This document shows positions 947-26,567 of a stretch of 64,000 nt of DNA, piece by piece. The notes beneath the pieces are model-generated. The model searched no databases and was not told the origin of the DNA. It was given only the letters and a program-made list of their open reading frames with translations. Position 1 is the stretch's first letter. Each line of letters starts with the position of its first letter. The DNA comes from Nocardioides marmoriginsengisoli (GTDB taxonomy: Bacteria; Actinomycetota; Actinomycetes; Propionibacteriales; Nocardioidaceae): NCBI RefSeq assembly GCF_003725695.1, contig NZ_RJSE01000009.1:372001-436000 (forward strand), written 5' to 3'. Position numbers and translations under genes: made by a program.

Positions 947-955
947 AGGATTCCT

Positions 956-5594: not shown

Positions 5595-5612
5595 GCACCC
5601 TCGCCCCTGAGA

Positions 5613-5648: not shown

Positions 5649-5669
5649 CTTCGGGGGCGCTCAGACGAT

Positions 5670-7751: not shown

Positions 7752-7878
7752 CACAAAGCACCCCACGCCCCAAGACGACGAAACCTGACCATGCGCCGGC
7801 CAACCTAGAAGCGCGCGCGGCGCCGTGGGCCGTTAGTGACAGGTCGGTGGGCAATCGGTGGGGACAAAAGGTACGTAG

Positions 7879-7902
7879 GCGTCGGAATCCGCCCTCCGAC
7901 GC
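7879..7902. terminator. hairpin downstream of the oxidoreductase operon
   Basis: GCGTCGGA at 7879-7886 and TCCGACGC at 7895-7902 form a perfect 8-bp stem with an 8-base loop. It lies about 85 bases beyond the stop of the molybdopterin enzyme gene (minus strand) and could end the long catabolic operon. It could instead lie in the promoter region of the secreted protein gene. Confidence 0.5.
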
Positions 7903-7986
7903 GTGCCGGAGCAAGTCCTCGTCGGTCAGCCCACGTCCCGGTCGGGACTTGGTGGAGAGGTCATCGGCTGGGCCGGGTGACCGGAT

Positions 7987-10314: not shown

Positions 10315-10344
10315 GCGTTCCTCCCGGACGTCGACCCGACGAGC

Positions 10345-10764: not shown

Positions 10765-10774
10765 GGGTCTCTCC

Positions 10775-11560
10775 TCAGAGGGTCGTGCCGGACAGGACGA
10801 TGCGGGCGGCGTGCACGGACGCGGGGTCCAGGAGCCCGGCCTCCGCGCCGGCCACCTCGATCTCGTAGACGACCGGGCCCGCCTCGGCGAGCCGACGGGC
10901 GGCGTCGGTCCCGGCCGCGGGGACGAGCAGCCGGATCTCCCGCGCCCCGAACCGGTACGACGTCACGGCACCGTCCGCGCGCTCGGAGCGCACCGGGTCG
11001 GAGCAGCCGGTCAGCATCGCCAACCCGACGTGCGCCGAGGCCGGATCCGCGGTCGCGATGGTGACCGAGCTGATCCCGGTGGCGCCGTTGGCGTGCGGCG
11101 CGGTCCCGGAGACCCGGACCGCGCGAGGAGTGACGTCCTCGAGCACGAACGGCAGCTCCGGGCCGGCCACCCCGACGCCGAGCGCGGTCATCCGGAGGAT
11201 CCACTCCTCGCCGTCCAGGCGCTTCTTGCCGCCCTCGGCGAACCCGGAGGACGGGATGCCCGCCGCCTCCGCCGCATCGACGACGCCCTGGAGGTCGGTC
11301 GTCGTGACCGAGTAGTCGCAGAAGCCCTCGCCGAGCTCGTCGTAGCGGAACCAGCGGTGCGAGCGGGCGTCCGGGTTGTCGCGGTCGAAGGCGTACAGCT
11401 CCAGGTAGGAGCCGTCCGGGAAGCACACCAGGCGGTGCTCCGCGATGTGCCCGCCCTCGTCCTCCCGGGTGGTGACCGCGAAGCCGGCGGCCCCGAACGA
11501 GCGCGCGCACTCCTCGATGTCGCGGGCCAGGACGATGACGTGGTCGAACGTGGTGATCAC
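10775..11560 (-). CDS. glyoxalase-like (VOC superfamily) protein
   Basis: The product is 261 residues from a GTG at 11560 that overlaps the TAG stop of the preceding gene by one base; GGAGG lies directly upstream within that gene's end. The N-terminal half (FDHVIVLARDIEECARSFGAAGF, then HIAEHRLVCFPDGSYLELYAF) is a Glyoxalase_3-type vicinal-oxygen-chelate domain with candidate metal ligands His6, His in AEHRL and Glu in YLEL. The C-terminal half is a more diverged VOC-like repeat. The substrate is unknown. Tight coupling to the FAD oxidoreductase suggests they act on the same compound. Confidence 0.8.
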   Translation of the reverse strand: MITTFDHVIVLARDIEECARSFGAAGFAVTTREDEGGHIAEHRLVCFPDGSYLELYAFDRDNPDARSHRWFRYDELGEGFCDYSVTTTDLQGVVDAAEAAGIPSSGFAEGGKKRLDGEEWILRMTALGVGVAGPELPFVLEDVTPRAVRVSGTAPHANGATGISSVTIATADPASAHVGLAMLTGCSDPVRSERADGAVTSYRFGAREIRLLVPAAGTDAARRLAEAGPVVYEIEVAGAEAGLLDPASVHAARIVLSGTTL

Positions 11561-12849
11561 TAGTCCTCCAAAGGGGTCGGTAGGTCGAAGCCCGAGGGGA
11601 CTCCGCTGTGCTGCTTGAACGGCCCGTCGTCGACGCCGGCGGGGGCTGCGTGCGGGCTCCGGCTCGGGACGACCTCGGTGGTCGCGCCGCCCCACGGGGC
11701 AGGCGGGTGGTTGAACGGGCTGCCGGTGACCGCGAACCGGTCCGGTGCGAACGGCTCCAGGACCGGCGGGCGCTCCCCGGTTCGGATCCAGCCGGCGACC
11801 AGGTCGCCGATCACCGGACCCAGGGCGAACCCGTGCCCGCTGAAGCCGGTGCAGGTGAACAACCCGCCGACCTCCCGCGGCCGGCCGATCACCGGGAGCA
11901 TGTCCGGGGTGAACTCACGGACGCCGGTCCACCGCCGGGCCAGGGTCGCGGCGGCGATCATCGGCGCCACCTCGGCCGCCTTGGCGCGGGCGTCCTCCAC
12001 GAACGCCGGCCCCGGCTCGTGGCTGAAGGTCCACTGCGTCGGGTCCGGCCGGGTCGCGCCGCCGAAGAGGATCGACCCGTCCTCCCACTGGCAGGCGTTC
12101 AGGTCCATCGACGCCCGGGCGACCCAGACGTGCGCGAAGGTGCGGTCGAGCGGAACCGTGCGGAACATGTGCAGCCGGCTCGGCGCCACCGGCAGGTAGA
12201 CCCCGGCCGACGCGGCCACCACCGAGGACCAGGGGCCGGCGGCGTTGACCACCGTGCCGGCCGACAAGCTCGTCCCGTCGGCGAGCTCGACCCCGGTCAC
12301 CGTGCCGCGGTCGACCCGCAGGCGGGTGACCTCGGCGTACGGACGGACCTCGACGCCGGCGCGCACGGCCGCCGCGTGCATCGTCTGCATCACCACGGCC
12401 GGCAGCGCCATCCCGTCGGTCTCGCAGAGCTTGCCGCCGACGTGCCCGGGAGCGAGCCCGGGTGCCATCGCCGCGACGTCGGCACCGTCGACGATCGTGG
12501 TCTTCAGCCCGTGCTCGGCCTCGGCGGCGCTGCGCTCCTCAAGCGCGGCCAACTCGCCGGCGTCGGCAGCCACCACCAGGTGACCGGTACGGCGGTAGCC
12601 GGTCGGCCCGCCGAGCCGCTCCGCCCACGTCGGCCAGGCCTCGATCGCCTGCTGCGCGAGGGCGAGCTCGGGGAAGGCCCGTCCCTGCTGCCGGACGCCG
12701 CCGCCGTTGCGCGACGACGCGGCCTTGCCGGGGACGCCCTTGTCGAGCACGGTCACCGCCACGCCGGCCTCCGCCAGCGAGAGCGCGATCGAGAGCCCGA
12801 CGATCCCGCCGCCGACGATGGCGACGTCCGTGGTCCGGGCCTCAGCCAC
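11560..12849 (-). CDS. FAD-dependent amino-acid/amine oxidase (DAO family)
   Basis: The product is 429 residues from a GTG at 12849 that overlaps the aminotransferase stop by eight bases; GGGGAG is the binding site. The Rossmann FAD motif GGGIVGLSIALSLAEAG is at about residues 13-29, SSRNGGGVRQQG at about 45-56 is the usual DAO flavin-contact loop, and WTGVREFTPDMLPVIG followed by GFSGHGFALGP forms the C-terminal FAD site. It resembles glycine/sarcosine oxidases and the beta subunit of sarcosine oxidase. It probably oxidises a secondary or primary amino acid made by the importer/OYE steps, releasing hydrogen peroxide. The substrate is not determined by sequence. Confidence 0.88.
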   Translation of the reverse strand: MAEARTTDVAIVGGGIVGLSIALSLAEAGVAVTVLDKGVPGKAASSRNGGGVRQQGRAFPELALAQQAIEAWPTWAERLGGPTGYRRTGHLVVAADAGELAALEERSAAEAEHGLKTTIVDGADVAAMAPGLAPGHVGGKLCETDGMALPAVVMQTMHAAAVRAGVEVRPYAEVTRLRVDRGTVTGVELADGTSLSAGTVVNAAGPWSSVVAASAGVYLPVAPSRLHMFRTVPLDRTFAHVWVARASMDLNACQWEDGSILFGGATRPDPTQWTFSHEPGPAFVEDARAKAAEVAPMIAAATLARRWTGVREFTPDMLPVIGRPREVGGLFTCTGFSGHGFALGPVIGDLVAGWIRTGERPPVLEPFAPDRFAVTGSPFNHPPAPWGGATTEVVPSRSPHAAPAGVDDGPFKQHSGVPSGFDLPTPLED

Positions 12850-14029
12850 GACCGGCTCCCCGGTTGTCGAGGGCCTTCCCGGCCTGGGCCAGGATCTGGT
12901 CGAAGATCTCCGGAGAGGTGGCGAGGTTGACCCGGACGTACTGGGCGTAGTCGGCACCGAACTCCGCGCCCGAGGTGAAGACGACCTGCGCCTCGCGCTT
13001 GAAGAAGTCCGAGGGGCTCTCCTCGAGCCCGAGCCGGCTGCAGTCCACCCAGTACAGGTAGGTGGACGTCGGGTACGCCGCCTCCAGCTGCTCGGCGTGC
13101 TCGGCGAGGAACGCCTCCATGCTGGCCCGGTTGGACCGGACCGCGTCCAGCACCTGCTCGAACCACGCGTTGCCGGACTCCCAGGCGACGGTGGTCGCCT
13201 CGACACCCATGATGTTCGCGCCGCCGAGCATCCGCGGCGGGAAGGTGGCGTGGAACCGTTCCTGGAGGGCGGCCGAACCGAAGTGCAGCACGGCGCAGCG
13301 CAGGCCGGCCAGACCGAACGACTTGCCGGCCGAGTACATCGTCACCGTCCGCTCGGCGATCTCCGGGCTGATCGAGGCGAACGGCACGTGCTGCTCGGCG
13401 TCGAGCATGAAGTCCGCCCAGATCTCATCGCTCGCGATCACCGCGTCCTGCTCGATCGCGATCTGGCCGATGGCCTCGAGCTCGGCCCGGGTGAAGGCGC
13501 GCCCGGTCGGGTTGTGCGGGTGGCAGAAGAGCAGCAGCGGCGACTCCGCGAGCGCGGCCCGGAGGGCGTCGAGGTCGATCGACCAGGTCCGGTCGTCGTA
13601 CCGCATGTGGTCGACGACCATCACCCGGCCGCTGTCCTCGATCCCCTCCCGGAACGGGTCGTACGTCGGGCCCTGGACGACCACCTTGTCGCCGGGCGCG
13701 CTGAACGCCTGCACGGTGTCGAACACGCCCTGGACCAGGTCGGTGCAGGCGAGCACCCGCTCGGGGTCGACCTCCCAGCCGAACCGGTCCTGCATCCGGG
13801 CGGCGAAGGCACGGCCCATCGCCGGGCCGAGCAGGGTGCCGCCACGGATCGCGTAACCGAAGTCCGACTCGGCGACCAACCGGGTCAGCGCCTCGGTGAC
13901 GGCCGCGGGAGCACGGAAGTCCATGTCCGCGACCCACGACGGCAGGTAGTCGGCACCGTGGTACGCCCACTTGGCACCGCGGCGCACCTCGAGCTCGGCG
14001 CGCGTCATGATCGGGTTGTCCATGGTCAT
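12842..14029 (-). CDS. PLP-dependent aminotransferase/C-S beta-lyase, MalY/PatB type
   Basis: The product is 395 residues of fold type I. Typical MalY/PatB features are WVADMDF at 32-38, CHPHNPTGR at 169-177, SDEIW at 200-204 and the PLP lysine K236 in SAGKSFGLAG with the following Arg. Members of this clade cleave C-S bonds in cystathionine, cysteine and S-substituted cysteines. That fits the nearby CoA-disulfide reductase-rhodanese and the S-oxide-reductase-like enzyme. A plain aminotransferase is the alternative. It overlaps the LLM gene by four bases (ATGA) and the FAD oxidase by eight. Confidence 0.88.
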   Translation of the reverse strand: MTMDNPIMTRAELEVRRGAKWAYHGADYLPSWVADMDFRAPAAVTEALTRLVAESDFGYAIRGGTLLGPAMGRAFAARMQDRFGWEVDPERVLACTDLVQGVFDTVQAFSAPGDKVVVQGPTYDPFREGIEDSGRVMVVDHMRYDDRTWSIDLDALRAALAESPLLLFCHPHNPTGRAFTRAELEAIGQIAIEQDAVIASDEIWADFMLDAEQHVPFASISPEIAERTVTMYSAGKSFGLAGLRCAVLHFGSAALQERFHATFPPRMLGGANIMGVEATTVAWESGNAWFEQVLDAVRSNRASMEAFLAEHAEQLEAAYPTSTYLYWVDCSRLGLEESPSDFFKREAQVVFTSGAEFGADYAQYVRVNLATSPEIFDQILAQAGKALDNRGAGRG

Positions 14030-15075
14030 GCTTCCTCCCGGGGGTTGGTGTCGTTGAGCCGCGCACGGGCGTGGTCGAGCGCGCGGGCGAGCAGGTTGAC
14101 GTCGGTGTCGGTGGCCACGGAGAGACTGAGCTCGTCAGCGAGCCCGCCGTACGCCGCGAGCTGATCGCCCACCTCGTCGGGCGTGCCGGCGATGCCGAGC
14201 CGGGCGACGAAAGCCGGCGACAGCCGGGGCGCTAGCGAGCCGAGATCCGTGCCCTCGGAGCGGCCGCGCTCGAGGATCTCCAGGTCGGCGCCGAACCCGA
14301 GGCGTTGGAGCTGACCGTGGAAGCCGCGGTCGCGGGCCAGGCCGGGGATCGGCAGCACTAGCGCGGCTGCCTGCTCCACCAGCCGGCCGCGAGCGACCTT
14401 CCCGTCCTCGGCGACGACGAGCGGCTGGGCGACGCAGACCTGCACGGGCTCGGTGAGCGCGGAGCCGCGACGGGCCTCCGCCAGCGCCTCCCGTACGGCG
14501 GGCAGATCGGCCGGCGCGAGCGCGGCGCCGTACACCCCGTCGGCGACCTCGCCCGCCAGCGCGAGCATCGCCGGACCGGCGGCCCCGAGGAAGAGCGGGA
14601 CCGCTGGCGGCGTGACGCCGATGCCGACCTCGACGAGCGTCTCCAGTGCTCCCGGGGTGCTCGTCGGGCGTCCGGCCAACAGCTCGCGCAGGGCAAGGGT
14701 CGCCTCCCGGAGCGCCGCGACCGGGCGGGCGCTCGCCGGGATGCCGTGGGCGCGGCGCCAGGCCAGGCTGTCCAGCCGGCCCGCCCCGAGCCCGAGCCGG
14801 AAGCCGCCGCCCTGGAGCTCGGAGACGGTCGCCGCGGCACTGGCCAGCGAGCCCAGCCGCCACTCCCCGATCGGCACCACGCCGATGCCGGTGAGCACGG
14901 GTCGACCCAGCGCCTGCCGGCGTGACCAGGCCTGGCTGGCGACCACGAACGGGTCGTGGCCGGGCGTGGCCACCGACCAGAGCGCCTCGACCGGCAGGTC
15001 CGCGGTGCGCTCGACGAAGCCGAGCGCGTCGTGCAGGTCGGTGCTGCGTGCCCGGACCCCGAGGCCGATCCTCAT
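14026..15075 (-). CDS. LLM-class flavin-dependent oxidoreductase (luciferase-like)
   Basis: The product is 349 residues and starts MRIGLGVRARSTDL. The bacterial luciferase-like TIM barrel is clear from the GIGVVPIGEWRLGSLASAAATVSEL segment and the GGGFRLGLGAGRLDS turn that precedes the flavin phosphate site. The enzyme uses FMNH2 as a monooxygenase or F420 as a dehydrogenase; sequence alone does not decide. Luciferase-like monooxygenases occur in S-alkyl-cysteine salvage operons next to polar amino-acid importers and C-S lyases (known from Bacillus ytm/snd-type loci), which is a close parallel. The start overlaps the OYE stop by four bases. Confidence 0.88.
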   Translation of the reverse strand: MRIGLGVRARSTDLHDALGFVERTADLPVEALWSVATPGHDPFVVASQAWSRRQALGRPVLTGIGVVPIGEWRLGSLASAAATVSELQGGGFRLGLGAGRLDSLAWRRAHGIPASARPVAALREATLALRELLAGRPTSTPGALETLVEVGIGVTPPAVPLFLGAAGPAMLALAGEVADGVYGAALAPADLPAVREALAEARRGSALTEPVQVCVAQPLVVAEDGKVARGRLVEQAAALVLPIPGLARDRGFHGQLQRLGFGADLEILERGRSEGTDLGSLAPRLSPAFVARLGIAGTPDEVGDQLAAYGGLADELSLSVATDTDVNLLARALDHARARLNDTNPREEA

Positions 15076-17090
15076 AGTCCGCGCGCCGCCCGGGCGCCCT
15101 CGAAGATCGCCTGCTCGAGCTGCCGGGGCGCCCAGCAGTCGCCGACGGCGTGCAGCTCGAACGGGTCCTCGCGCAGCTCCCGCCAGACGTCGCGGTCGGC
15201 ACGGCCCTTGCTGACCAGGACGACGCTGTCGGCCGCGATCGTGTCCAGGTGGCCGTCGAGGCGTTGCGCGACCGCGCCGGCGTCGGTGATCTCGACGATC
15301 TCCTCGAGGGCGCGCATCACGACTCCCGCGGCGAGGAGCCGTTCGTAGAAGAGCCGCCAGGTCATCAGGTCTCCGTCGACGCCGGGGAAGGGCGCCGGCG
15401 TCACCAGGGTGACCGCGTGGCCGGCGCCGACCAGCGACTCGGCGACGCTGAGCCCGGCCCAGCGCCCGTCCCAGTCGCCGACCACGACGCGGCCCGGCGG
15501 CACCTCGCCGCGGAGGGCAGCGCGCCCGGAGTAGACGTTCGGCCGGTCGTTCCCGTCGACCTCCTGAAGCGCGTCGACCGCACCGGTCGCGACGATGACC
15601 GCGTCAGGCCGCAGCTCCCGGATGGCGGCCGCGGTCGCCTCCTGGCCGAGCCGGACCTCGACGTCGTGCTGCTTGAGCTGCCGCTCGTACCAGTCGAGGA
15701 TCTTGCCGTACTCGCTGCGGTGCGGGCTCGACTCGATGTAGCGGAGCTGACCGCCGAGCCGGTCGTCGCGCTCGAGCAGGGTGACCCGGTGACCCTGCTT
15801 CGCCGCCGCGCGGGCGGCCTCCAGGCCGCCGGGGCCGCCGCCGACCACGACCACGCGCCGGGACCGGTCGGCAGCGACCGCGCTGAGCGGGATCCAGACG
15901 TTTTCGCGCCCGACCCGCGGGTTGTAGACGCAGGTGATCGGGCCGACGCGCTGCTGGCGGGAGAAGCAGCCCTCGTTGCAGTAGATGCAGGCCCGGACCT
16001 CGGCGCCCCGGCCCTCGCGGATCTTGTTGACCAGCTCGGGCTCGGCGATGTGCGCCCGGGTCATCGCGACCATGTCGGCGCCGCCGGTCGCGACGATCTG
16101 GTCGGCGACGTCGAGGTCGTGGATCTTGCCGACGGTGAAGACCGGGATGTCGACGGCCGCCTTGACCATCCGGGCGAGCGGCACGAGCGCGCCCTGCGGC
16201 ACCGTGATCGTCGGGTAGTGGACCGACCGGCTGAGCATGCTGGAGTTGGACCCGGCAGAGATGTCGACGAAGTCGAGCTTTCCCCACTCGATCATCTGGT
16301 GGAGCCAGCGCAGCCCGTCCTCGACGCGGTAGCCGTTGGTAACGACCTCGTCGACGCTGAACCGGATCCCGAAGGTGAAGTCGTCACCGATCGCGGCGCG
16401 CGTCGCCTCCAGGACCTCCCGGGCCATCCGGAGCCGGTTCTTCTCGCTGCCGCCGTACTCGTCGGTGCGGCGGTTGGACCACGGCGAGAGAAACTCCTGC
16501 ACCAGGTTGCCGTGGGCGAAGGAGAGCTCGACGCCGTCCAGGCCGCCCTGCTTGCAGCGCAGCGCGCCGGCGGCGAAGGCCTTCACGATCGCGGCGATCT
16601 CGTCGTGCTCCAGCTCGTGCGGGATGTCCCGGGTCCGGTCCATCGGCATCGCCGAGGGGCCGAGCGGCGGCTCGCCGTCGACGCCCATCACGACGTTGCG
16701 ACCCGAGTGCGAGAGGAGCGCCATGATCGCGGCGCCCTCGGCGTGCACGGCGTCGGCGATCCGGCGGTAGTCCGGGATGATCGAGTCGTCGACGTTCTGC
16801 ATCCCGCGCGCGGTGGCGGAGACACCGACCGCGGCGAGCGGGTCGATCGAGGTCGCCTCCAGCACGATCAGGCCGACGCCGCCGCGGGCCCGCTCCAGGT
16901 GGTAGGCGAGGAGCTGGTCTGTGACGCCGCCGTTGCTGAAGCCGGTCCCGTGGGCGCTGCTGAACACCCGGTTGCGGAGAGTCACCCTCCCCACCTGCAA
17001 CGGCGAGAGGACGTGCGCGAGGGCCGGGTCCGAGGAGGGCTCCGGCTCGATGCCGGACGGGTCGTAGGCAAGGCGGTCGATGGTCGTCAC
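15072..17090 (-). CDS. OYE-family NADH:flavin oxidoreductase with 4Fe-4S cluster (FadH/TMADH-like)
   Basis: The product is 672 residues, the usual length for the three-domain enzymes 2,4-dienoyl-CoA reductase, trimethylamine/dimethylamine dehydrogenase and relatives. An FMN TIM barrel covers 1-370. The cluster motif CIYCNEGC followed by a fourth Cys 11 residues later (C-x2-C-x3-C-x11-C) is at about 375-395. A nucleotide-binding domain with VVVVGGGPGGLEAARAAAKQG starts at about 420. It could demethylate an N-methyl compound or reduce an unsaturated acid. It is the first gene of a seven-gene operon, and two palindromic operator-like sites lie 19-60 bases upstream of its ATG. Confidence 0.9.
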   Translation of the reverse strand: MTTIDRLAYDPSGIEPEPSSDPALAHVLSPLQVGRVTLRNRVFSSAHGTGFSNGGVTDQLLAYHLERARGGVGLIVLEATSIDPLAAVGVSATARGMQNVDDSIIPDYRRIADAVHAEGAAIMALLSHSGRNVVMGVDGEPPLGPSAMPMDRTRDIPHELEHDEIAAIVKAFAAGALRCKQGGLDGVELSFAHGNLVQEFLSPWSNRRTDEYGGSEKNRLRMAREVLEATRAAIGDDFTFGIRFSVDEVVTNGYRVEDGLRWLHQMIEWGKLDFVDISAGSNSSMLSRSVHYPTITVPQGALVPLARMVKAAVDIPVFTVGKIHDLDVADQIVATGGADMVAMTRAHIAEPELVNKIREGRGAEVRACIYCNEGCFSRQQRVGPITCVYNPRVGRENVWIPLSAVAADRSRRVVVVGGGPGGLEAARAAAKQGHRVTLLERDDRLGGQLRYIESSPHRSEYGKILDWYERQLKQHDVEVRLGQEATAAAIRELRPDAVIVATGAVDALQEVDGNDRPNVYSGRAALRGEVPPGRVVVGDWDGRWAGLSVAESLVGAGHAVTLVTPAPFPGVDGDLMTWRLFYERLLAAGVVMRALEEIVEITDAGAVAQRLDGHLDTIAADSVVLVSKGRADRDVWRELREDPFELHAVGDCWAPRQLEQAIFEGARAARGL

Positions 17091-17108
17091 GACCCTAGGT
17101 GTATCACC

Positions 17109-17125
17109 GTGGAACTAGTTTCCAC
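17109..17125. promoter_or_regulatory. operator-like palindrome, site 1
   Basis: GTGGAACTAGTTTCCAC has arms GTGGAA and TTCCAC around five bases. The centre is 25 bases from that of site 2. It lies 19 bases upstream of the OYE start codon, between it and the IclR gene. Confidence 0.75.
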
Positions 17126-17133
17126 AAGCATAT

Positions 17134-17150
17134 GTGGAAACCATTTCCAC
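17134..17150. promoter_or_regulatory. operator-like palindrome, site 2
   Basis: GTGGAAACCATTTCCAC has arms GTGGAAA and TTTCCAC around three bases. It is the second of a tandem pair upstream of the OYE operon and downstream of the iclR-type gene. Similar sites at 21268-21284 and 24991-25007 precede the other two operons of the cluster. Confidence 0.8.
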
Positions 17151-17233
17151 ATTCGTCACCTAGGGCGAAGGGCATGCTGGCGCCGACTCCCGACGAACCC
17201 GTACGCCGGAGCCGCTGAGCCGTCCGAGGCGCC

Positions 17234-18013
17234 TCAGATCTGCAGGAAGGAAGCCGCCTGGCCGATCCGCGGTGCGGCCTCGCGCATGCATGCGACCACG
17301 TCGTCCAGCCGGTCGTCGGTGATCCGCTGGACCGGGCCCTCGACGCAGAGCGCCGCGACCGTCGTACCGCCGGCGTCCTCGATCGGCACCGCCAGCGAGC
17401 GCACGCTCTCGTTCATCTCCTCGCTGTTCACCGAGTAGCCCTGCTCGGCGATCTTCGCCAGCTCCTTGATCAGATTGCGCGGGTCGGTGATCGTCGTCGG
17501 CGTGTACCGCATCAGCGGCCCGAGTCGTTCCACCGCGGCCTTGCGGTCCGGCTCGAGGCTGAGGAAGAGCTTGCCGACCGCGGTCGCGTGCATCGCGATC
17601 ACCGGTCCGGCACCGAGGTGCACCCGCAGCGCCTGCTGCGACTCGACCCAGCTGACCATCGAGGCCCGCGAGCCGCGGACGACCGCGATCGCTGCGGTCT
17701 CGCCGGTCCGCTCGACGACCTCGGCGAGGATCTCGTTGGCGGCCAGCAGGCCGATCCGCCGACCGGCGAGCTGCCCGAGGGTCAGCAGCGCCGGGCCGAG
17801 GTAGTACTTCTCGGTCTCCGAGTCCTGGACCAGGAAGCGGCCGCGGACCAGCGCCTGGGCGATCCGGTGCGCGGTGCTGAGCGGCAGGTCCAGCCGCTCG
17901 CAGAGCTCGCTGACCGAGACGTCGGCATCGAAGTCGTGGAAGGCGTTCAGCAGGTCGACGGCACGGTCGATGGCACGGCTTCCGGTCCGGGGCTCAGGTG
18001 CGCTCTGGGTCAT
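17234..18013 (-). CDS. IclR-family transcriptional regulator
   Basis: The product is 259 residues. The N-terminal winged helix-turn-helix (about 10-75) contains SVSELCERLDLPLSTAHRIAQALV. The C-terminal IclR effector-binding domain (about 80-255) contains the typical HATAVGKLFLSL and GYSVNSEEMNESVRSLAVPI segments, and residues MREAAPRIG near the end. IclR proteins bind short palindromes upstream of catabolic operons and respond to pathway intermediates. The four TGGAAA-type palindromes in front of the three flanking operons are the obvious candidate targets. The gene follows the NIPSNAP gene by 64 bases and may be expressed with the importer operon. Confidence 0.92.
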   Translation of the reverse strand: MTQSAPEPRTGSRAIDRAVDLLNAFHDFDADVSVSELCERLDLPLSTAHRIAQALVRGRFLVQDSETEKYYLGPALLTLGQLAGRRIGLLAANEILAEVVERTGETAAIAVVRGSRASMVSWVESQQALRVHLGAGPVIAMHATAVGKLFLSLEPDRKAAVERLGPLMRYTPTTITDPRNLIKELAKIAEQGYSVNSEEMNESVRSLAVPIEDAGGTTVAALCVEGPVQRITDDRLDDVVACMREAAPRIGQAASFLQI

Positions 18014-18077
18014 GATGGCTCACATACTGACAGCAGCCGCCGCGTTGCGCACGGGAGTGGGACCGGGCCACCCGCGG

Positions 18078-18380
18078 TCAACGAGCGGTGAAGACGTCGT
18101 CGACGGCGCGGATGTCCACCGCTTCGACGTACTCCGCCGCGTCCCACGGCACCTGGGCCCGCAACGGGCTGTCGTAGTACGCCTGCTCGGCCGCGTCGTA
18201 GTCGCCCTCACCCGGCCAGCCGACGATCCACACGAACTCGCGGGTCGCGGCCGAGAACCAGGACCCCAGCACCTCGAAGCCGACCTCGCGACGGAGCGGG
18301 ACCAGGGTCTCGTTCCACCGCTCGACGAACTCGGCCTCCCGACCTTCGCGGAGGGTGTAGGTGCGCAGACGCAGTTGCAT
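18078..18380 (-). CDS. NIPSNAP family protein
   Basis: The 100-residue product has the dimeric alpha-beta barrel pattern of NIPSNAP proteins: an N-terminal MQLRLRTYTLREGREAEFVERW strand-helix, FEVLGSWFSA in the middle and FVWIVGWP. Such small proteins accompany catabolic operons; their biochemical role is mostly unknown. It lies 28 bases downstream of the ABC ATPase gene and is presumably co-transcribed with the importer. Confidence 0.8.
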   Translation of the reverse strand: MQLRLRTYTLREGREAEFVERWNETLVPLRREVGFEVLGSWFSAATREFVWIVGWPGEGDYDAAEQAYYDSPLRAQVPWDAAEYVEAVDIRAVDDVFTAR

Positions 18381-18408
18381 GACAGTCCTTTCGAGCGGGT
18401 GAGGGGGA

Positions 18409-19227
18409 TCAGACGAGCCGGCTCAGGAAGGCCTGAGCACGGGGGTGGGTCGGATTGTCGAGGACCTGCTCCGGCGGGCCGACCTCGACGATCTGGCCGC
18501 CGTCGACGAACGCGACCCGGCCGGCGACCTCGCGGGCGAAGGTCATCTCGTGGGTGACCACGACCATGGTCATGCCGGTCTCGGCGAGCTGCTTCATCGC
18601 GTGGAGGACCTCCTTGACCAGCTCGGGGTCCAAGGCGCTGGTCGGCTCGTCGAAGAGCATCAGCCGTGGCTTCATCGCCAGCGCCCGGGCGATCGCCACC
18701 CGCTGCTGCTGACCGCCGGAGAGGTGCCGGGGATAGGACTTGGCCTTCTCGGCCAGCCCGACCATCGCGAGCAGCTGCTCGGCAGTCGCGACGGCCTCAC
18801 GCCTCGGGACGCCGGCGACGTTGACCGGCGCCTCCACCAGGTTCTCCATCACGGTCAGGTGCGGGAACAGGTTGAAGTGCTGGAAGACCATCCCGATCTC
18901 GGCGCGCTGCTTGCGGACCTCGCGCGCCTTCAGCTCCTTGAGCACCGGGACGCCACCCCGTTCACTCGACCGGTAGCCGATCAGGTCGCCGTTGACCGCG
19001 ATCGAGCCGGCGTCCCAGGTCTCCAGCCGGTTGATGCAGCGCAGCAGGGTGCTCTTGCCGGAGCCGGAGGCGCCGATCAGGCAGACCACCTCGCCCTCGG
19101 CGACGTCGAGCGAGAGACCTTGCAGGACGTGCAGGTCGCCGTAGCTCTTGTGGAGCTCGCGGATCTCGACCATCGACCGGCCGTCGGCCCGGGCCGTGCC
19201 GGCCGCGGGAATCGTCGTGGTGCTCAT
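18409..19227 (-). CDS. polar amino-acid ABC importer, ATP-binding protein
   Basis: The product is 272 residues; Met19 could be the real start of the conserved part. Walker [10 protein letters not shown] is at 52-60, the Q-loop is in [14 protein letters not shown], the signature is [15 protein letters not shown], Walker B is [14 protein letters not shown] and the switch His is in VVVTHEM. The sequence is of the GlnQ/HisP type, whose partners import polar amino acids. It overlaps the permease gene by four bases. Together with the permease and the binding protein it forms a complete importer. Confidence 0.93.
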
Positions 19228-20159
19228 GCCTTTCCTCCCGTCGGAGTGGTGAAGACGCCGCGGGCGCGGAGGAAGACCGCCTTCGCCTGCGCCCAGGGGC
19301 TCGCGGTGGTCGAGCGGGTCGCGCCGCGGCCGTAGTACCGCTCGACGAAGTACTGGAGCACCGAGAGCACCGCAGTCATGAACATGTACCAGAGCGTCGC
19401 GACGACCAGCAGCGGCACGACCTCGAACGTCCGGTTGTAGATGAACTGGGCCGCGTAGAGAAGCTCGTCGACCGCGATCACCGAGACGATCGCTGTTCCC
19501 TTCAAGGTGCCGATCAGCAGGTTGCCCGCCGCCGGCACGATGCTGCGCATCGCCTGCGGCAGCACGATCCGGCGCAGGATCCGGGCCCGGGACATCCCGA
19601 GGGCGTCACCCGCCTCGGTCTGACCGGGGTCGACGCTGAGGATGCCGCCGCGGACGATCTCGGCGGCGTACGCGGCCTCGTGCAGGGTGAGCCCGAGGAA
19701 CGCCGCCGTGGTCGCCGAGATCAGCTTGTTGGCGTCACCCTCGATGAGCGGCGGCAGGAACGGCAGCCCGATCTCGATCTTCGGGTAGAGGTAGGCGATG
19801 TTGAACCAGAGGAGCAGCTGCACCAGCAGCGGCACCGAGCGGAACACCCAGACGTAGAACCAGGCGAGCCAGGCGAGCACCGGGTTCTTCGACATCCGTG
19901 CGGTCGCGATCAAGGTGCCCAGGAGCATCCCGACCGCGGTGACCGCGAAGGTCAGGATGATCGTCAGCCGCAGGCCCTTCATGATGCCCTCGTCGAAGAG
20001 GTACTCCCCGACGACGTCCCACTGGAGCCGGCTGTTGCCGAGGATCGACTCCAGGACCACGAACGCGAGCAGGATCGCCGCCGCGCCGGCGACCCAGCGG
20101 CCGGGGTGGCGGAGCGCCTCCAACGGCGGCGGGTTTGCCTCGGTGGTGCTGACTGACAT
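19224..20159 (-). CDS. polar amino-acid ABC importer, permease
   Basis: The product is 311 residues of the HisM/GlnP type with an N-terminal transmembrane extension. Hydrophobic segments lie at about 28-48, 70-95, 105-125, 195-215 and 245-270. The EAA loop is visible as [30 protein letters not shown], and the [25 protein letters not shown] run is diagnostic of the family. A single permease gene suggests a homodimeric pore. It is translationally coupled to the downstream ATPase (ATGA). Confidence 0.93.
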
Positions 20160-20239
20160 GGCTGCTCTCCTCGATGGTGGATACGTCTGTGCCGCCGGTC
20201 GTGGCGACGCCCGGGGGCGCCGCCACGACGGCCTGCCTG

Positions 20240-21211
20240 TCAGCCGAACATCGCCGACTGTGCTCCTGCGTTGATGCCCGGGGTCATCTGGCCGTCGCCG
20301 AGGTTCCAGCGCTCCAGGGCGTCCTTGTAGTAGCCGTCCGCGACGAGCTTGTCGAGAGCGGCGAGGACGGCCTTGGCGACCTCGTCGCCATCCTTCGCCA
20401 CGGTGAAGCCGTAGTACGTGTCGGTCGGGGTCGGCGGGGCGACCTTGTCGATCTTGTCACCGCTGGCCGAGCCCCAGACGACGTAGCTGGCCGGCGTGAA
20501 GAACGTGTCGATCCGGCCGGACTTCGCAGCCAGCAGTAGCGCCGGCACGTCCTCGAAGTAGGACACCTTCGGAGCGTCCTTGCCTGCGTCGGCGCAGGAC
20601 TTGGTCATGTCCTCGATGATGTCGATCGAACCCTTCACCGAGCCGTAGGTCCCGCCGCAGAAGTCCTCCCACGACTTGATCTTGCCGACGTTCGTCCCCT
20701 GGACCGCGAGCACGTAGTTCGACTTGAAGTAGTCGACGAACTGGTACGTCGCCTGCCGCTCACGGGTGTCGGAGTTGGTCGAGAACGCGATGTCGACGCG
20801 CTTGGAGTCGATCGCCAGCAGCTGCGAGGCCGTGGTCGGGTAGACCGAGCCCTCGATCTTGACGCCCAGGATCTGAGCGATCGCGGCCTGCAGGTCCGGG
20901 ACCATGCCGGCGACCGTGCCGGTGTCCTTGCCCGGGATCGTCAGCGGCGGGTTGCCGGCGCTGAGCGCGGCCTTGAGGACGCCGGAGTCCTGGATCGACT
21001 GGGGCAGCATCGCGCGGATGGTGTCGTCGACCTTGTAGTCGGGCTTGAGCTGCGCCTGGCTGGTCAGGTCGCCGGACGAGTCGCCGCCGTCCTTGCCGTC
21101 GTCGTCCGAGGACGACCCGCACGCGGCGAGGGACAGGGCGAGGGTCGCCGCGACGGCGACCGCCGGGAGAACGGAGGCACCTCGGCGCCGACCCGTGAAT
21201 CGAAGGTTCAT
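20240..21211 (-). CDS. amino-acid ABC importer, substrate-binding lipoprotein
   Basis: The product is 323 residues from MNLRFTGRRR at 21211. It has a lipoprotein signal with lipobox LSLAACG (Cys at about 30), an acidic linker SSSDDDGKDGGDSSGD, and then a type II periplasmic-binding fold with GTVAGMVPDLQAAIAQILGVKI and the family segment FSTNSDTRERQATYQFVDYF. The ligand is a polar amino acid or derivative; the exact compound is not evident. A palindromic operator-like site lies 57-73 bases upstream of the ATG. Confidence 0.92.
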   Translation of the reverse strand: MNLRFTGRRRGASVLPAVAVAATLALSLAACGSSSDDDGKDGGDSSGDLTSQAQLKPDYKVDDTIRAMLPQSIQDSGVLKAALSAGNPPLTIPGKDTGTVAGMVPDLQAAIAQILGVKIEGSVYPTTASQLLAIDSKRVDIAFSTNSDTRERQATYQFVDYFKSNYVLAVQGTNVGKIKSWEDFCGGTYGSVKGSIDIIEDMTKSCADAGKDAPKVSYFEDVPALLLAAKSGRIDTFFTPASYVVWGSASGDKIDKVAPPTPTDTYYGFTVAKDGDEVAKAVLAALDKLVADGYYKDALERWNLGDGQMTPGINAGAQSAMFG

Positions 21212-21267
21212 GCTGCTCCAATCGGATGGCTGCGGGGTTGCACCCGAGCGATGCATCCACGACAGAA

Positions 21268-21284
21268 ATGGAAAGTGTTTCCAC
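21268..21284. promoter_or_regulatory. operator-like palindrome, site 3
   Basis: ATGGAAAGTGTTTCCAC contains the arms TGGAAA and TTTCCA around GTG. It lies between acetoacetyl-CoA synthetase and the binding-protein gene, in front of the importer operon. Confidence 0.8.
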
Positions 21285-21344
21285 AACCTAAGGTCGATCC
21301 CTCGACTTGGCAAGGAATTCCGTGGTCTTCGTTACACACAGTTT

Positions 21345-23282
21345 TCATTCGGCCGTCCGGAACCGGACGAAGTCGAGCAGCGCAGCGGGGTCGTCGGTGG
21401 CGTCGAGAGCGCCGATCGCCGCCGGGTCCGCGCCCTGCACGATCCGCTTGACCGGCACCTCCATCTTCTTCCCGGTCCGGGTCCGCGGAACCGCCCGGAC
21501 CAGCTCGACGCAGTCGGGGACGTGGTGCTTGGACGCGCGCGCCGCCACCACCTCGCGCACCCGCGCCTCCGAGCCCTCGTCCCAGGTAGCCGAGGGCACG
21601 ACGAACAGTGGCATCCAGTACTCCCCGTCCGCGCGCTCGACCCCGATCACCAGCGAGTCCACGACGTCGTCCAGGGACTCGACCGCGGCATAGATCTCCG
21701 CGCTGCCGAGCCGGATCCCGCGCCGGTTCAGCGTGGCGTCCGACCGGCCGTGCATCAGCACCGTCCCGCGCGAGGTCACCGTGATCCAGTCGCCCTGCCG
21801 CCACACCCCCGGGTACGTCGAAAAGTAGGCGTCGCGGTAGCGCGAGCCGTCCGGGTCGTCCCAGAACATCACCGGCATCGACGGGATCGGATGGGTCACG
21901 ACCAGCTCGCCGACCTGGTCGGTGACCGCGTTGCCGGCGTCGTCCCAGGCTTCCAGCGCGACACCGAGCGCACGGGCGCTGATCTCGCCGTCGTACACCG
22001 GGGTCGTCGGTGCCGCGCCGACGAAGGAGCCGACGACGTCGGTGCCCCCGCTGACCGAGGCGAGCTGCACCTGGTCCCCGAGGACCTCGCGGACCCAGCG
22101 GTTCGCACTCGCCGGCAGGGTCGATCCGGTGGAGGCGATCGTGCGCAACGAGGCCCCGGGTCGCGGCACCACTCCGGCCGCCTCGGAGGCGCCCAGGTAG
22201 CCCGGACTGGTCCCGAAGACGGCGACGTCGTGCTTGGCGACCAGGTCCCAGAGCCGCTCGGGGCCCGGATGGAGCGGGTCGCCGGCGTACAGGACGGCGG
22301 TGGCACCGAAGAGCAGGCCGCACACCTGCACGTTCCACATCATCCAGTTCGGGGTGGTGTACCAGAAGAACGTGTCCTCGGGCCGGAGGTCGGTGTGCAG
22401 CCCGAGCGACTTCAGCTGCTCCAGCAGGACGCCGCCGTGGCCGTGCACGATCGCCTTGGGCTTGCCCGTCGTACCGCTGGTGAAGAGGGCCCACAGCGGG
22501 TGCGCGAACGGTACGGCGACCGGCGGGATCGGCTCGCCACTGGTCGCGAGCGCGTCGGCCCAGCGGGTGACCGCGACCGCCGCCCGGACCGGCTCGCCGG
22601 TGGTGACGACCGCCGTCAGGGTCGGGAGCAGTCCGCAGAGCTCGGACGCCGCGTCAGCACGGTCGTGGCGACGGCCGCGGAAGGCGTAGCCCGTCCCGGT
22701 GACCAGCACGGCCGGCTCCAGCTGCGCCAGCCGGTCGGCTGCGGCACCCGGACTGTAGTCCATCCCGACCTGAGCCCAGAGCGCGCCGAGGGTGGCGGTG
22801 GCGAGGAAGGCGACGACGCCCTCGTAGCCGTTCGGCAGGTACCCGACGACCCGGTCCCCCGGCCCGATGCCGGCGTCGCGCAGGAACCGGGCCATCGCGG
22901 CGGTGTCGGCCCGGAGCCGTCCGTAGGTCCAGGTGTCGGTGGCGCCGTCCTCGTGCTCGACGACGACAGCCGTGCGAGCCGGGTCGACGCCCCGGCCGAC
23001 GTGGTCGACCAGGTTGAGTTCACTCCCCGGGAACCAGTCGGCGCCAGGCATCGTCGGGTCGCGGAGAACCTGCTCGGGCGGAACGGCGAACCGGACCTCG
23101 AAGTAGTCGGCGAGCGCTCCCCAGAACGCTTCGGGGTGCTCGATGCTCCACCGTCGGAGCGCCTCGTAGTCGTGGTCGGCCGCGGCCGGTGCGGCCCGGT
23201 GCTGCCTGACCCAGCGACCGAAGTCGACGATCCGCGAGGCCGCGGCGGCCTCGGAGCGGGGGGTCCATGCGGGCTGGTGCAT
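21345..23282 (-). CDS. acetoacetyl-CoA synthetase
   Basis: The product is 645 residues of the ANL adenylate-forming superfamily. The P-loop ALFTSGTTGKPKAIVHGHGG and the segment FFWYTTPNWMMWNVQVCGL are characteristic of acetoacetate-CoA ligases. The hinge and catalytic region is GVWRQGDWITVTSRGTVLMHGRSDATLNRRGIRLGSAEIY (read as two parts), and the C-terminal lysine is in RTRTGKKMEVPVKRI. It would activate acetoacetate or another short 3-oxo acid with ATP and CoA. It lies 45 bases downstream of the CoA-disulfide reductase gene, in the third operon of the palindrome regulon, so it may process a carboxylic acid released by the pathway. Confidence 0.9.
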   Translation of the reverse strand: MHQPAWTPRSEAAAASRIVDFGRWVRQHRAAPAAADHDYEALRRWSIEHPEAFWGALADYFEVRFAVPPEQVLRDPTMPGADWFPGSELNLVDHVGRGVDPARTAVVVEHEDGATDTWTYGRLRADTAAMARFLRDAGIGPGDRVVGYLPNGYEGVVAFLATATLGALWAQVGMDYSPGAAADRLAQLEPAVLVTGTGYAFRGRRHDRADAASELCGLLPTLTAVVTTGEPVRAAVAVTRWADALATSGEPIPPVAVPFAHPLWALFTSGTTGKPKAIVHGHGGVLLEQLKSLGLHTDLRPEDTFFWYTTPNWMMWNVQVCGLLFGATAVLYAGDPLHPGPERLWDLVAKHDVAVFGTSPGYLGASEAAGVVPRPGASLRTIASTGSTLPASANRWVREVLGDQVQLASVSGGTDVVGSFVGAAPTTPVYDGEISARALGVALEAWDDAGNAVTDQVGELVVTHPIPSMPVMFWDDPDGSRYRDAYFSTYPGVWRQGDWITVTSRGTVLMHGRSDATLNRRGIRLGSAEIYAAVESLDDVVDSLVIGVERADGEYWMPLFVVPSATWDEGSEARVREVVAARASKHHVPDCVELVRAVPRTRTGKKMEVPVKRIVQGADPAAIGALDATDDPAALLDFVRFRTAE

Positions 23283-23327
23283 CGCTTCTCCTTGCTCGGC
23301 CGGCCGAGCCAGCCGCGAGTGGGTGGT

Positions 23328-24971
23328 TCAGGAACGCCAGGAAGGCAGCCGCCCGGAGGCGGCGAGCCGGGTGCGGATGCCGCCGTCCAGGTTGCTGACC
23401 TCGATGCCGTGCTGCGCGAGGATGCGCGCGGCCACGTGTCCGCGCTGGCCGACCGCGCAGTAGACAACGACGCGCGGCCCGACCTCCGCGAGTCGGTCGC
23501 GGAGCTCGTCGAGCGGCAGGTTGACCGCTCCCGGGAGCGCCCCTCTGGCGAACTCGGCGACGGTCCGGACGTCCACGAGCTGCGCGCCCGCGGCGACCTC
23601 GTCGTCGAGCCCGTGCCACTGGACGGTTCGGCTGCGGCCGTCGCGGAGGTTCTCGGCCATGTAGCCGAGCATGTTGACCGGGTCCTTGGCCGAGCCGAAC
23701 TGGGGCGCGTAGGCGAGCTCGAGCCCGGCGAGGTCGCTGGCCCGGATCCCGGCGGCCATCGCCGTGGAGATCACGTCGATCCGCTTGTCGACCCCGGCGC
23801 CGCCGACCGCCTGGGCTCCGAGGATGGCGTCACTGGCGGCGTCGACGACCAGCTTCAGCGCCATCTGCTCGGCACCCGGGTAGTAGCCGGCGTGGTCGAA
23901 CGGGTGCGAGTGCAGTACCCGGATCTCGTCACCGCGGAGCCGGCAGACCCGCTCGCTGTCCCCGGTCATCGCGACCACGGTCCCGAGCACCTCGACGATG
24001 GCGGTGCCCCGGGTCATCCGCCCCTGCGGTTCGTGCCCGCTCAGCACGTCGGCGACCCGCCTGCCCTGGAGGTTCGCGGTGTTGGCCAGCGGCACCTCGC
24101 GCAGCCCGTACGGCGATCGCTTCGCGACGGCATCCCCCACGGCATAGATGTTCGCGACGTTGGTGCGCTGGCCGTCGTCGACGTAGATCGCGCCGGTCGC
24201 GGAGACCTCCACCCCGGCCGAGACGGCCAGCGAGCTCTCCGGGCGGACGCCCGCACTGAGCAGGACCAGGTCGGCAGCGACGCGGGTGCCGTCGGCGAGC
24301 ACGACGGCGTCGTCGCTGACCGACACCACTCGGACCCCGGTCAGGACCGTGACCCCGGCGGCACGGAGCCGCTCCTCGACGGGCGCCGCCATCTCGACGT
24401 CGACCGGCCCGAGCACCTGCGGAGCCGCTTCGAGGAGGGTGACCGCGAGGCCGCGGCGGACGAGGTTCTCGGTGACCTCGAGCCCGATGAACCCGGCCCC
24501 GATGACGGCGGCCGTCCTCGCCCCGGAGTCGATCGACGCGATGATCCGGGCGACGTCGTCGAGGTCGCGGCAGGTGAGCGCCCGATCGATCCCCGGCAGG
24601 TCGGGTCGGACCGGCGCGGCACCGGTGCTCAGCACCAGGTTGTCGTAGGCCAGGTCGAAATCCGTCCGGGTGGCGAGGTCGCGAACGGTGACGGTGCGCT
24701 GCCCGGCGTCGACACCGACGACCTCGTGCTCGACCCGGACGTCGAGTCCGAAGCGCGCGGCGAGCGAGCCCGGCGTCTGCAGGAGGACGTCGCCCTCGTC
24801 CTCGATCACGCCGCCCACCAGGTAGGGCAGGCCGCAATTGGCGAAGGAGACGTGCGGCCCGCGCTCGAGCACGACGATCTCGTCGCCCTCGTTGAGTCGG
24901 CGCAACCTGGTCGCCGCCGACATCCCTCCTGCCACTCCGCCCACGATCACGGTCCGTCGAGGTTGCGTCAT
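23328..24971 (-). CDS. CoA-disulfide reductase fused to a rhodanese domain
   Basis: The product is 547 residues from MTQPRRTV at 24971. An FAD/NAD(P)-binding disulfide-reductase domain occupies about 1-440, with GGVAGGMSAATRLRRL at the N-terminus and the single active Cys46 in SFANCGLPY. The second nucleotide site is VIGAGFIGLEVTENL. The C-terminal rhodanese domain (about 455-547) has Cys505 in VVYCAVGQRGHVAARIL. Such CDR-Rhd fusions reduce CoA disulfide, CoA persulfide or polysulfide with NAD(P)H, so the protein points to persulfide handling. Operator-like site 4 ends 20 bases upstream of the ATG. Confidence 0.9.
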   Translation of the reverse strand: MTQPRRTVIVGGVAGGMSAATRLRRLNEGDEIVVLERGPHVSFANCGLPYLVGGVIEDEGDVLLQTPGSLAARFGLDVRVEHEVVGVDAGQRTVTVRDLATRTDFDLAYDNLVLSTGAAPVRPDLPGIDRALTCRDLDDVARIIASIDSGARTAAVIGAGFIGLEVTENLVRRGLAVTLLEAAPQVLGPVDVEMAAPVEERLRAAGVTVLTGVRVVSVSDDAVVLADGTRVAADLVLLSAGVRPESSLAVSAGVEVSATGAIYVDDGQRTNVANIYAVGDAVAKRSPYGLREVPLANTANLQGRRVADVLSGHEPQGRMTRGTAIVEVLGTVVAMTGDSERVCRLRGDEIRVLHSHPFDHAGYYPGAEQMALKLVVDAASDAILGAQAVGGAGVDKRIDVISTAMAAGIRASDLAGLELAYAPQFGSAKDPVNMLGYMAENLRDGRSRTVQWHGLDDEVAAGAQLVDVRTVAEFARGALPGAVNLPLDELRDRLAEVGPRVVVYCAVGQRGHVAARILAQHGIEVSNLDGGIRTRLAASGRLPSWRS

Positions 24972-24990
24972 CCCGTCATCGTAGACCGAT

Positions 24991-25007
24991 ATGGAAACGG
25001 TTTCCAC
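24991..25007. promoter_or_regulatory. operator-like palindrome, site 4
   Basis: ATGGAAACGGTTTCCAC contains the arms TGGAAA and TTTCCA around CGG. It lies immediately upstream of the CoA-disulfide reductase/acetoacetyl-CoA synthetase operon. Confidence 0.8.
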
Positions 25008-25040
25008 AGATGCTTTGAGTTCGCCTGACTCGACGACGCG

Positions 25041-25442
25041 TCAGCCAACCCGGGCGAGGCTCCTCGCCAGGCTCGGGATCATCACCGCCGCGGCCAGGAG
25101 GTGCAGCCCGACCAGGGACATCGCGGTGGCCGCACCTGCCCCGACCAGAAACGGCGGCACCAGCGAGACCGCGGTCAGCGATACCGCCGACACGGTGAAT
25201 CGCCGAGCGGGGCGGGAGCTCCACCGTCGGAACGCGGCGGCGAGGAGCAGGCCGATGACCGAGAAGACGCCGGTCACCACCGCGATCCCGGAGACCGGGA
25301 TCGTCTCGTCGCCGTCGGCGATCGCGAAGTCGACGCCGACGGCACGCGCCAGTGCAGCCGCGACCGTGGTCGCGGCTACCGCAGCGAGCACAGCACCGAC
25401 GCCGGTCCCGACAAGACGTCGGGTCTCGTGACGCTCGGGCAT
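25041..25442 (-). CDS. DUF6069-like membrane protein
   Basis: The product is 133 residues from the ATG at 25442. Four predicted membrane helices are visible (about 8-28, 45-66, 78-98, 104-126), with FAIADGDETIPVSGIAVVTGVFSVIGLLLA in the middle typical of DUF6069 proteins. The function is unknown. It starts 52 bases downstream of the sigma-factor stop on the same strand and may be a sigma-linked gene. Confidence 0.7.
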   Translation of the reverse strand: MPERHETRRLVGTGVGAVLAAVAATTVAAALARAVGVDFAIADGDETIPVSGIAVVTGVFSVIGLLLAAAFRRWSSRPARRFTVSAVSLTAVSLVPPFLVGAGAATAMSLVGLHLLAAAVMIPSLARSLARVG

Positions 25443-25494
25443 GGCGGGACCGATCCGCCCACGGAGTCCGCGGGCACCGTTGCTCCGCACCGGA

Positions 25495-26481
25495 CTACTC
25501 GCCGCCCGCCGGCAGCCGCTCCGGCAGCCCGAGGCTCGAGAACCGGTCGGCGTGGAAGGTGGTGATCTCGGCGATCGCCCCGCCCGCGATCCGCAGGACG
25601 TCGATCGTCAGCGGCAGGTACGCAGCCTCCTGGTCCGACCACTGGTAGAAGCCGATCGCGGGCTGCCGGTTCACCGACGTACCGACGGTGCGGAGTCCGG
25701 TCATCCCCTCGAAACCGCTCTCGACCCAGTAGTCGACGACCACCTCGCGGCCGACGTACAGGCCGGGTGTGGGCGGCATCGAGGTGCGGACGTCGTCGCG
25801 CACCATCGCCGCCAGCTCACCGATATCGGTGGCCACGCTGGCGTCGGTGTAGCGGCGTACGAGCTCACGGGTCTCGACGTCCTGGTCACCGTCGGTCCAG
25901 TCCTGACGCTCGGCGGGCAGGTGCTCGCGCATCCCGGCGCGGGCTCGCTGCAGCGCGCTGTTCACCGAGTTCACCGAATCACCGAGCAGCTCGGCGACGT
26001 CCTTCGCCGGCCAGCCGACGACGTCCCGCAGGATCAGGGCGGCGCGCGGACGCGGGGCGAGGTGCTGGACGGCCACCAGGTACGCCAGCTCGATCGTCTC
26101 CTGCGCGACCGCGAGCGCCTCGGGCTCGTCGGCGTCACCGGCCGGCAGCTCGTCGAGCAACCGGTCCGGGTAGGGCTGCAACCACAGCACCTCGCCTCCG
26201 GTCGCGGCCTTCGGGCGGCGCTGGTCGAGCAGGTCCAGGCAGGCATTGGTGGCGATCCGGTAGAGCCAGGCCCGGAACGTCGACCGACCCTCGAAGGTCT
26301 CCCGCCGCCGCCACGCCCGGAGGTACGTCTCCTGCACGGTGTCCTCGGCGTCCTCGAACGATCCGAGCATCCGGTAGCAGTGCACGTGCAGCTCCCGCCG
26401 GTGCCGCTCCGCCATCGCCGAGAACTCCGCCTCGTCCACCTCGCTCATGCCCAGCTCCTCCACCCGCGTCTGCACGCTCAT
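25495..26481 (-). CDS. ECF sigma factor with C-terminal SnoaL-like domain (SigG/SigJ type)
   Basis: The product is 328 residues from MSVQTRVEE at 26481, which has GGAAGG at a workable distance; an ATG at 26490 directly abuts that site. Sigma region 2 (about 22-90) includes CYRMLGSFEDAEDTVQETYLRAWRR and region 4 (about 130-190) includes LILRDVVGWPAKDVAELLGDSVNSVNSALQRAR. The C-terminal 130 residues form a SnoaL/NTF2-like domain (RRYTDASVATDIGELAAMVRDDV). Extended ECF groups of this type lack a classical anti-sigma factor and are controlled by that domain. The target genes are unknown. Confidence 0.88.
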   Translation of the reverse strand: MSVQTRVEELGMSEVDEAEFSAMAERHRRELHVHCYRMLGSFEDAEDTVQETYLRAWRRRETFEGRSTFRAWLYRIATNACLDLLDQRRPKAATGGEVLWLQPYPDRLLDELPAGDADEPEALAVAQETIELAYLVAVQHLAPRPRAALILRDVVGWPAKDVAELLGDSVNSVNSALQRARAGMREHLPAERQDWTDGDQDVETRELVRRYTDASVATDIGELAAMVRDDVRTSMPPTPGLYVGREVVVDYWVESGFEGMTGLRTVGTSVNRQPAIGFYQWSDQEAAYLPLTIDVLRIAGGAIAEITTFHADRFSSLGLPERLPAGGE

Positions 26482-26567
26482 CACCGTCATCCTTCCGTCT
26501 CATCGTGTCCTGTCACACGTATGACGGCTGCGGGCGCGAGAACTCATCACCGGAGCCCGTACGACGC

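Follow-up and report, generated by a model that had tools for sequence, protein, structure and literature searches.

Within a 64,000-nucleotide stretch of the Nocardioides marmoriginsengisoli genome (contig NZ_RJSE01000009.1, positions 372,001 to 436,000; hereafter the window, numbered from its first letter), four short palindromes lie in front of a cluster of 14 genes that includes an IclR-type regulator gene. These four palindromes are real and, with the patterns searched, confined to the cluster. We propose that the IclR-type protein of the cluster (gene at 17234-18013) uses them as operators, each TGGAA/TTCCA pair being read by one dimer. Bound dimers would shut off the promoters of three operons that adjoin one another on one strand, one of which includes iclR itself, until a small ligand, probably the compound taken up or something formed early in its breakdown, docks to the C-terminal domain and lifts the repression. 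Uptake and breakdown would thereby be switched on together. Taken as a whole, we hold this explanation to be likely, with considerable confidence for a model built from sequence.

The four 17-bp palindromes stand exactly where a preliminary description of this DNA had placed them. Operator 1, GTGGAACTAGTTTCCAC (17109-17125), and operator 2, GTGGAAACCATTTCCAC (17134-17150), are centred 27 and 52 bp upstream of the start codon of an OYE flavoenzyme gene; operator 3, ATGGAAAGTGTTTCCAC (21268-21284), is centred 65 bp upstream of the likely ATG of a solute-binding protein gene; and operator 4, ATGGAAACGGTTTCCAC (24991-25007), is centred 28 bp upstream of the likely ATG of a persulfide/CoA-disulfide reductase gene. 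None of the four is assigned to a strand, and all distances run from the centre of the site to the predicted start codon. The claim that the arms are nearly identical around variable centres (CCA, GTG, CGG) needs a small amendment, in that TGGAAA-N3-TTTCCA describes three of the sites and the first (TGGAACTAGTTTCCA) deviates by a single base in one arm.

The window holds four copies of TGGAAN5TTCCA, where 0.01 were expected (100 shuffles, none with at least four); the entire genome (4,457,833 bases in 16 contigs) has five, and the reversed control pattern occurs there once. That four of these five should fall inside 17 kb of 4,458 kb has, by arithmetic, a chance of about 1e-9. The fifth copy falls in coding sequence, in the frame of a small protein that contains the stretch CGKRFHYPRH and has co-directional neighbours. 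Allowing one mismatch in the 17-bp pattern added three further places in the genome (control, five), all inside long open frames. Thus, with these two patterns no other copy lies between genes and no unlinked regulatory target was found; the palindrome does not precede many unrelated genes across the genome, a distribution that the preliminary description, in suggesting such a scan, had named as one that would speak against it. Relaxing the window search to two mismatches gave 14 matches against 7.6 expected (at least 14 in 2 of 100 shuffles), the ten additional ones all carrying two mismatches. Among 23 other genomes of the genus, TGGAAN5TTCCA was found in ten places in total, zero to two per genome, with 15 for the control, which is chance level. 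Scored with a 19-column matrix derived from them, the four sites reached 27.5-33.4 bits and the next best place in the window 10.0 bits; the matrix was trained on these same sites, and the gap between the scores is its informative part.

The protein proposed to bind the sites has 259 residues and belongs to the IclR family by its domain scores (HTH_IclR, PF09339, 52.7 bits against a cut-off of 22; IclR_C, PF01614, 112.9 bits against 24). Its recognition helix, LPLSTAHRI, has S-T-x-H-R in common with the LPNSTTHRL of Escherichia coli IclR, and by eye the S, T, H and R positions match Ser48, Thr49, Gln51 and Arg52 of TtgV, named as contact positions in PMC8222616. The genome holds 17 HTH_IclR matches, the cluster regulator included; of the 16 others, we aligned the seven whose match covers almost all of the domain, and ST.HR occurs in none of them (one has PTAHR). 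Site type and recognition helix together fit a regulator like E. coli IclR, and on the strength of these sequence features the locally encoded protein is very probably the reader of the four sites.

The sites themselves conform to what has been described for the family. The E. coli IclR box is given as TGGAAATNATTTCCA in Table 1 of PMC8222616, which also supplies an inward-facing group-2 consensus, TGRAACAN1-2TGTTYCA, and a usual zone of -20 to -80 for site centres. All four sites comply with the inward palindrome TGRAA...TTYCA of 15-16 bp, each at 15 bp, and their centres at -27, -28, -52 and -65 from the predicted start codons lie inside the usual zone. Besides the box type TGGAAA-N3-TTTCCA and the S, T, H and R residues of the helix, a further likeness to E. 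coli IclR is TGGAAATCATTTTCA, a site that fits the pattern with one mismatch, 24 bp before iclR of strain K-12. The regulated genes differ, with no aceBAK among the cluster genes here, and the cluster regulator scores 108.6 bits against an equivalog cut-off of 380 for the glyoxylate bypass IclR model (NF008601). E. coli AllR is also similar, with a helix LPLSTTFRL, a box that is likewise TTGGAA/TTCCAA and a locus bearing two TGGAA/TTCCA palindromes. The best NCBIfam match of the cluster regulator is BhcR (NF045644), which we take to be the regulator of the beta-hydroxyaspartate cycle; its 159.9 bits are far under the cut-off of 350, and no enzyme of that cycle is named among the cluster genes.

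Relatives of the regulator were assembled from 49 loci, of which 39 were taken for a closer look (left out were L005, L021, L033, L035, L036, L042, L044, L045, L048 and L049). The helix LPLST[AT]HRL is present in 35 of the 39, mostly from Arthrobacter and Sinomonas. In 20 of these 35 loci, TTCCACTNAGTGGAA, which holds the same half-sites in outward order, occurs with at most two mismatches within 150 bp after iclR; it is found in two of the remaining four as well (22 of 39), and random stretches of the same loci come to about six mismatches. These counts are to be read with the pattern and the 150-bp range having been picked after inspection of the data, and with the genomes being mostly close kin, such that the cases are not independent. 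The Arthrobacter/Sinomonas-type proteins thus resemble the cluster regulator in helix and, in 20 of 35 loci, in their TTCCA/TGGAA half-sites, but differ in the outward, group 1 arrangement of those half-sites, which face inward here, and in sequence (30-43% protein identity over the matched parts). An outward comparison is offered by the GenR box of Corynebacterium glutamicum, ATTCC-N7(5)-GGAAT (PMC8222616, Table 1). At one locus that we inspected singly, L006, the TTCCACTNAGTGGAA palindrome (10829-10843) lies after the IclR-type gene and directly before a cytochrome P450 gene, which is followed by a PEP-synthase-like gene.

The gene order, the three promoter regions and the position of iclR inside the cluster are as the preliminary description had them. 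The 14 genes span 7,987-24,971, all in minus orientation, and neighbours within each proposed operon overlap or are no more than about 80 bp apart (with two start codons uncertain), an arrangement that makes three operons likely. Operators 1 and 2 sit in the 143 bp that separate iclR from a run of seven genes, the proposed operon 1. It opens with the OYE/FadH-like flavoenzyme, which has a C-terminal pyridine nucleotide domain (15072-17090), and continues with a luciferase-like (LLM, F420- or FMN-type) oxidoreductase (14026-15075), a PatB-family C-S lyase (12842-14029; 315.5 bits against the NCBIfam TIGR04350 cut-off of 340), a DAO-family amine/amino-acid oxidase (11560-12831) and a Glyoxalase_3 (VOC) protein (10775-11566), these last two being the genes with uncertain start codons. 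It ends with an OsmC-like protein (10345-10764) and a molybdopterin S/N-oxide reductase of the BisC/TorA/DMSO-reductase type (7987-10314). Operon 2, after operator 3, would comprise the family-3 solute-binding protein (20240-21211), a permease (19224-20159) and an ATPase (18409-19227) of the polar amino-acid ABC type, a small open reading frame (18089-18382) and iclR. The small frame is NIPSNAP-like by eye and has no Pfam or NCBIfam match. Operon 3, after operator 4, would hold the CoA-disulfide/CoA-persulfide reductase, with its rhodanese domain (23328-24971), and an acetoacetate-CoA ligase (21345-23282; NF002937, 787 bits against a cut-off of 639; TIGR01217, 673.9 bits, above the equivalog cut-off of 520.9). 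A window search at up to two mismatches found no operator directly before iclR, so the regulator gene would be controlled through operator 3. We found no second recognisable regulator gene among the 14. The co-regulated unit of about 17 kb that had been postulated therefore holds in its extent (7,987-24,971) and in its single internal regulator gene, its shared control being what the sequence suggests.

How the regulator would act, and whether it is the reader at all, invite alternatives. Short leaders are common in actinobacteria, and with such leaders a dimer bound at operator 1 or 4, close to the predicted start, would sit across the core promoter, which favours repression; we judge repression rather than activation to be probable. 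Somewhat unlikely is that the same protein, on the same operators, is a ligand-dependent activator or dual regulator recruiting RNA polymerase. PcaU and PobR are IclR-family activators that do so, and an activator could sit at -52 and -65, where operators 2 and 3 lie; operators 1 and 4 are centred only 27-28 bp before the predicted start codons, where with short leaders the core promoter itself would be occupied. That the family includes activators and dual regulators is set out in section 4 of PMC8222616.

It is very improbable that some other factor reads the sites, be it one of the IclR paralogues of this genome, a LacI-type protein or DnaA, with the local iclR as a bystander. The 17 HTH_IclR matches do provide candidates, LacI operators can carry TGGAAA arms, and the TTTCCACA half-sites are, we presume, DnaA-box-like. 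Yet a global factor would not be expected to have its sites, as searched, nowhere else between genes; ST.HR is absent from the seven paralogues aligned of 16; and the cluster encodes no other recognisable regulator. The odd and variable centre of the sites further argues against a LacI-type protein, whose operators we take to have even spacing and a central CG.

What the cluster consumes is a more tentative matter. The preliminary description had predicted that importer and enzymes serve one substrate. Several of the proteins are compatible with a sulfur amino acid without proving it, and the singleness of the substrate is suggested by the shared control. Going by gene content, the PatB-type lyase, the CoA-persulfide reductase, the BisC-type enzyme and the amino-acid importer, whose permease has a cystine permease as its best model, in combination make an amino acid that is S-substituted, and perhaps S-oxidised, the leading though tentative candidate substrate. 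Import would be followed by reduction of the S-oxide and C-S cleavage by the PatB-type lyase, with the CoA-persulfide reductase handling the released thiol or persulfide. The best solved matches of these two cluster enzymes are PatB (6qp3, 6.8e-66) and a CoA-persulfide reductase (8a56, 5.1e-146), both strong and over most of the length. In the literature that we searched, there was no record of a PatB lyase and a CoA-persulfide reductase under one IclR-type regulator together with a BisC-type reductase. Alternatively, the substrate might be a methylated amine, a betaine or an N-oxide, degraded via a TorA-type reductase, a trimethylamine-dehydrogenase-like OYE and a sarcosine-oxidase-like DAO. 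The molybdopterin reductase does match TorA as well (627 bits, under the cut-off of 909), trimethylamine and histamine dehydrogenases are among the PDB matches of the OYE protein, and the best solved match of the DAO protein is named sarcosine oxidase (1y56_B). However, the OYE protein is closer to dienoyl-CoA reductase, the best NCBIfam model of the DAO protein is glycine oxidase ThiO (under its cut-off), and this route would leave the PatB-type C-S lyase and the CoA-persulfide reductase without an evident role. We consider it unlikely.

A number of observations weigh against the proposed regulon and its sulfur substrate. Several of the enzymes score under their NCBIfam cut-offs: besides the lyase, the CoA-disulfide reductase reaches 391.7 bits against an equivalog cut-off of 578.8 (TIGR03385), the molybdopterin reductase 866.5 bits over nearly its full length against 1017.55 (bisC_fam, TIGR00509) and the importer permease 142.6 bits against 300 for its best model, a cystine permease. 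The sulfur proposal assigns no step to the OYE, LLM, VOC, DAO and OsmC proteins or to the acetoacetate-CoA ligase. A scan of 7500-25500 for consensus sigma-70 promoters found none. Operators 1 and 2 are spaced 25 bp centre to centre, outside the 18-22 bp published as usual for tandem IclR sites, a trait that PMC8222616 treats as common and not required. In E. coli, no site lies before aceB at up to two mismatches, and a 14-kb stretch yielded two matches against 0.92 expected, which is not above chance. Among the relatives of the regulator, the outward palindrome is missing, at up to two mismatches, in 15 of the 35 LPLST[AT]HRL loci; five ST.HR relatives (L048 and the plasmid loci L076-L079) have the palindrome in neither order within 1.5 kb; and the inward palindrome appears in one of the 49 loci, about 6 kb from the iclR gene there. 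The helix alone is thus no predictor of the site. Finally, at 1e-40 neither 196 other genomes of the family nor a phylum sample of 395 more yielded a relative of the regulator (partly overlapping sets, with up to 13 or 6 first-look candidates scored per genome), leaving no second locus for judging conservation of the sites.

The OYE promoter region carries a further feature. Operators 1 and 2 form an inverted pair with 18-bp arms (89% complementary), and they are enclosed by perfect 9-bp inverted arms, CCCTAGGTG (17093-17101) and CACCTAGGG (17157-17165), making 17093-17165, which has no strand of its own, one nested palindrome. The outer-arm 9-mer has six copies in the genome, two of them here, and its reversed form 54, marking these letters as rare. 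Symmetric 9-bp arms arose by chance in 28 of 20000 shuffles of the flanks and at 186 of 63878 window positions, and 13 of 3000 shuffles had 9-bp arms at any place in the flanks; having weighed chance as their origin, we retain the arms as an unexplained feature. Folded as RNA, the region gives a single extended hairpin (z -4.4) whose stability none of 200 shuffles equalled. A classical terminator between iclR and the OYE gene was considered and rejected since, strong as the hairpin is, no terminator-like site with a T run was found. In read-through RNA the OYE start has an unpaired probability of 0.23 against 0.42-0.45 in transcripts starting nearer, a modest shielding that is partly a consequence of the palindromes themselves; for a leaderless OYE transcript the value was 0.18, taken over just the three start bases. 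It is tempting to speculate that this promoter is a composite switch, in which the inverted IclR operator pair, at its unusual 25 bp, is enclosed by another inverted repeat (CCCTAGGTG/CACCTAGGG) that is not an operator and ends beside the start codon. The 73 bp of the whole might accommodate an IclR tetramer of different spacing along with another factor or, in read-through RNA, form a 28-pair hairpin that shields the OYE start from the upstream importer-iclR transcript. We regard such a switch, within a rare regulon that serves a new organosulfur pathway, as quite improbable.

From these searches, whose thresholds and capped candidate numbers pass over weak relatives, the cluster looks rare. 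The binding protein has one relative, at 33% identity, among the 196 other genomes of the family, and the DAO protein none at 1e-90 in 295 other genomes of a class sample. The closest regulators seen, at about 40% identity, are on Rhodococcus and Streptomyces plasmids, and that of locus L050 shows 43% identity over part of its length. Relatives of the VOC protein occur in nine other genomes at 36-40% identity; at seven of the nine loci, the flanking 5-17 kb held no cluster gene besides one generic ATPase match (28%), and neither order of the palindrome. Searching through the regulator, the binding protein, the DAO protein and the VOC protein, at strict thresholds and with limited candidates per genome, we found no second copy of the cluster.

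As a check for recent insertion, we compared base composition; the cluster has a G+C content of 0.68-0.75, like its right flank. Directly beside it on that side (25041-26490) lie a DUF6069 gene and a sigma factor gene of the SigX5 type (TIGR02960), the latter with relatives at 43-49% identity in 6 of 23 other genomes of the genus. At the other end, positions 1-6000 of the window have a G+C content of 0.60-0.65, against 0.67-0.75 onward to 45000, with frames of no clear function, and are perhaps an acquired stretch beside the cluster.

The picture that emerges is of a probable, self-contained regulon, with one regulator, four operators and three operons, in which the identity of the inducer would point to the nutrient. 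The inward half-sites here and the outward ones of the Arthrobacter-type relatives form a pair on which one recognition helix could be tested against two half-site arrangements. Should the sulfur proposal hold, the cluster would represent an added route for the use of an S-substituted amino acid by an actinobacterium.

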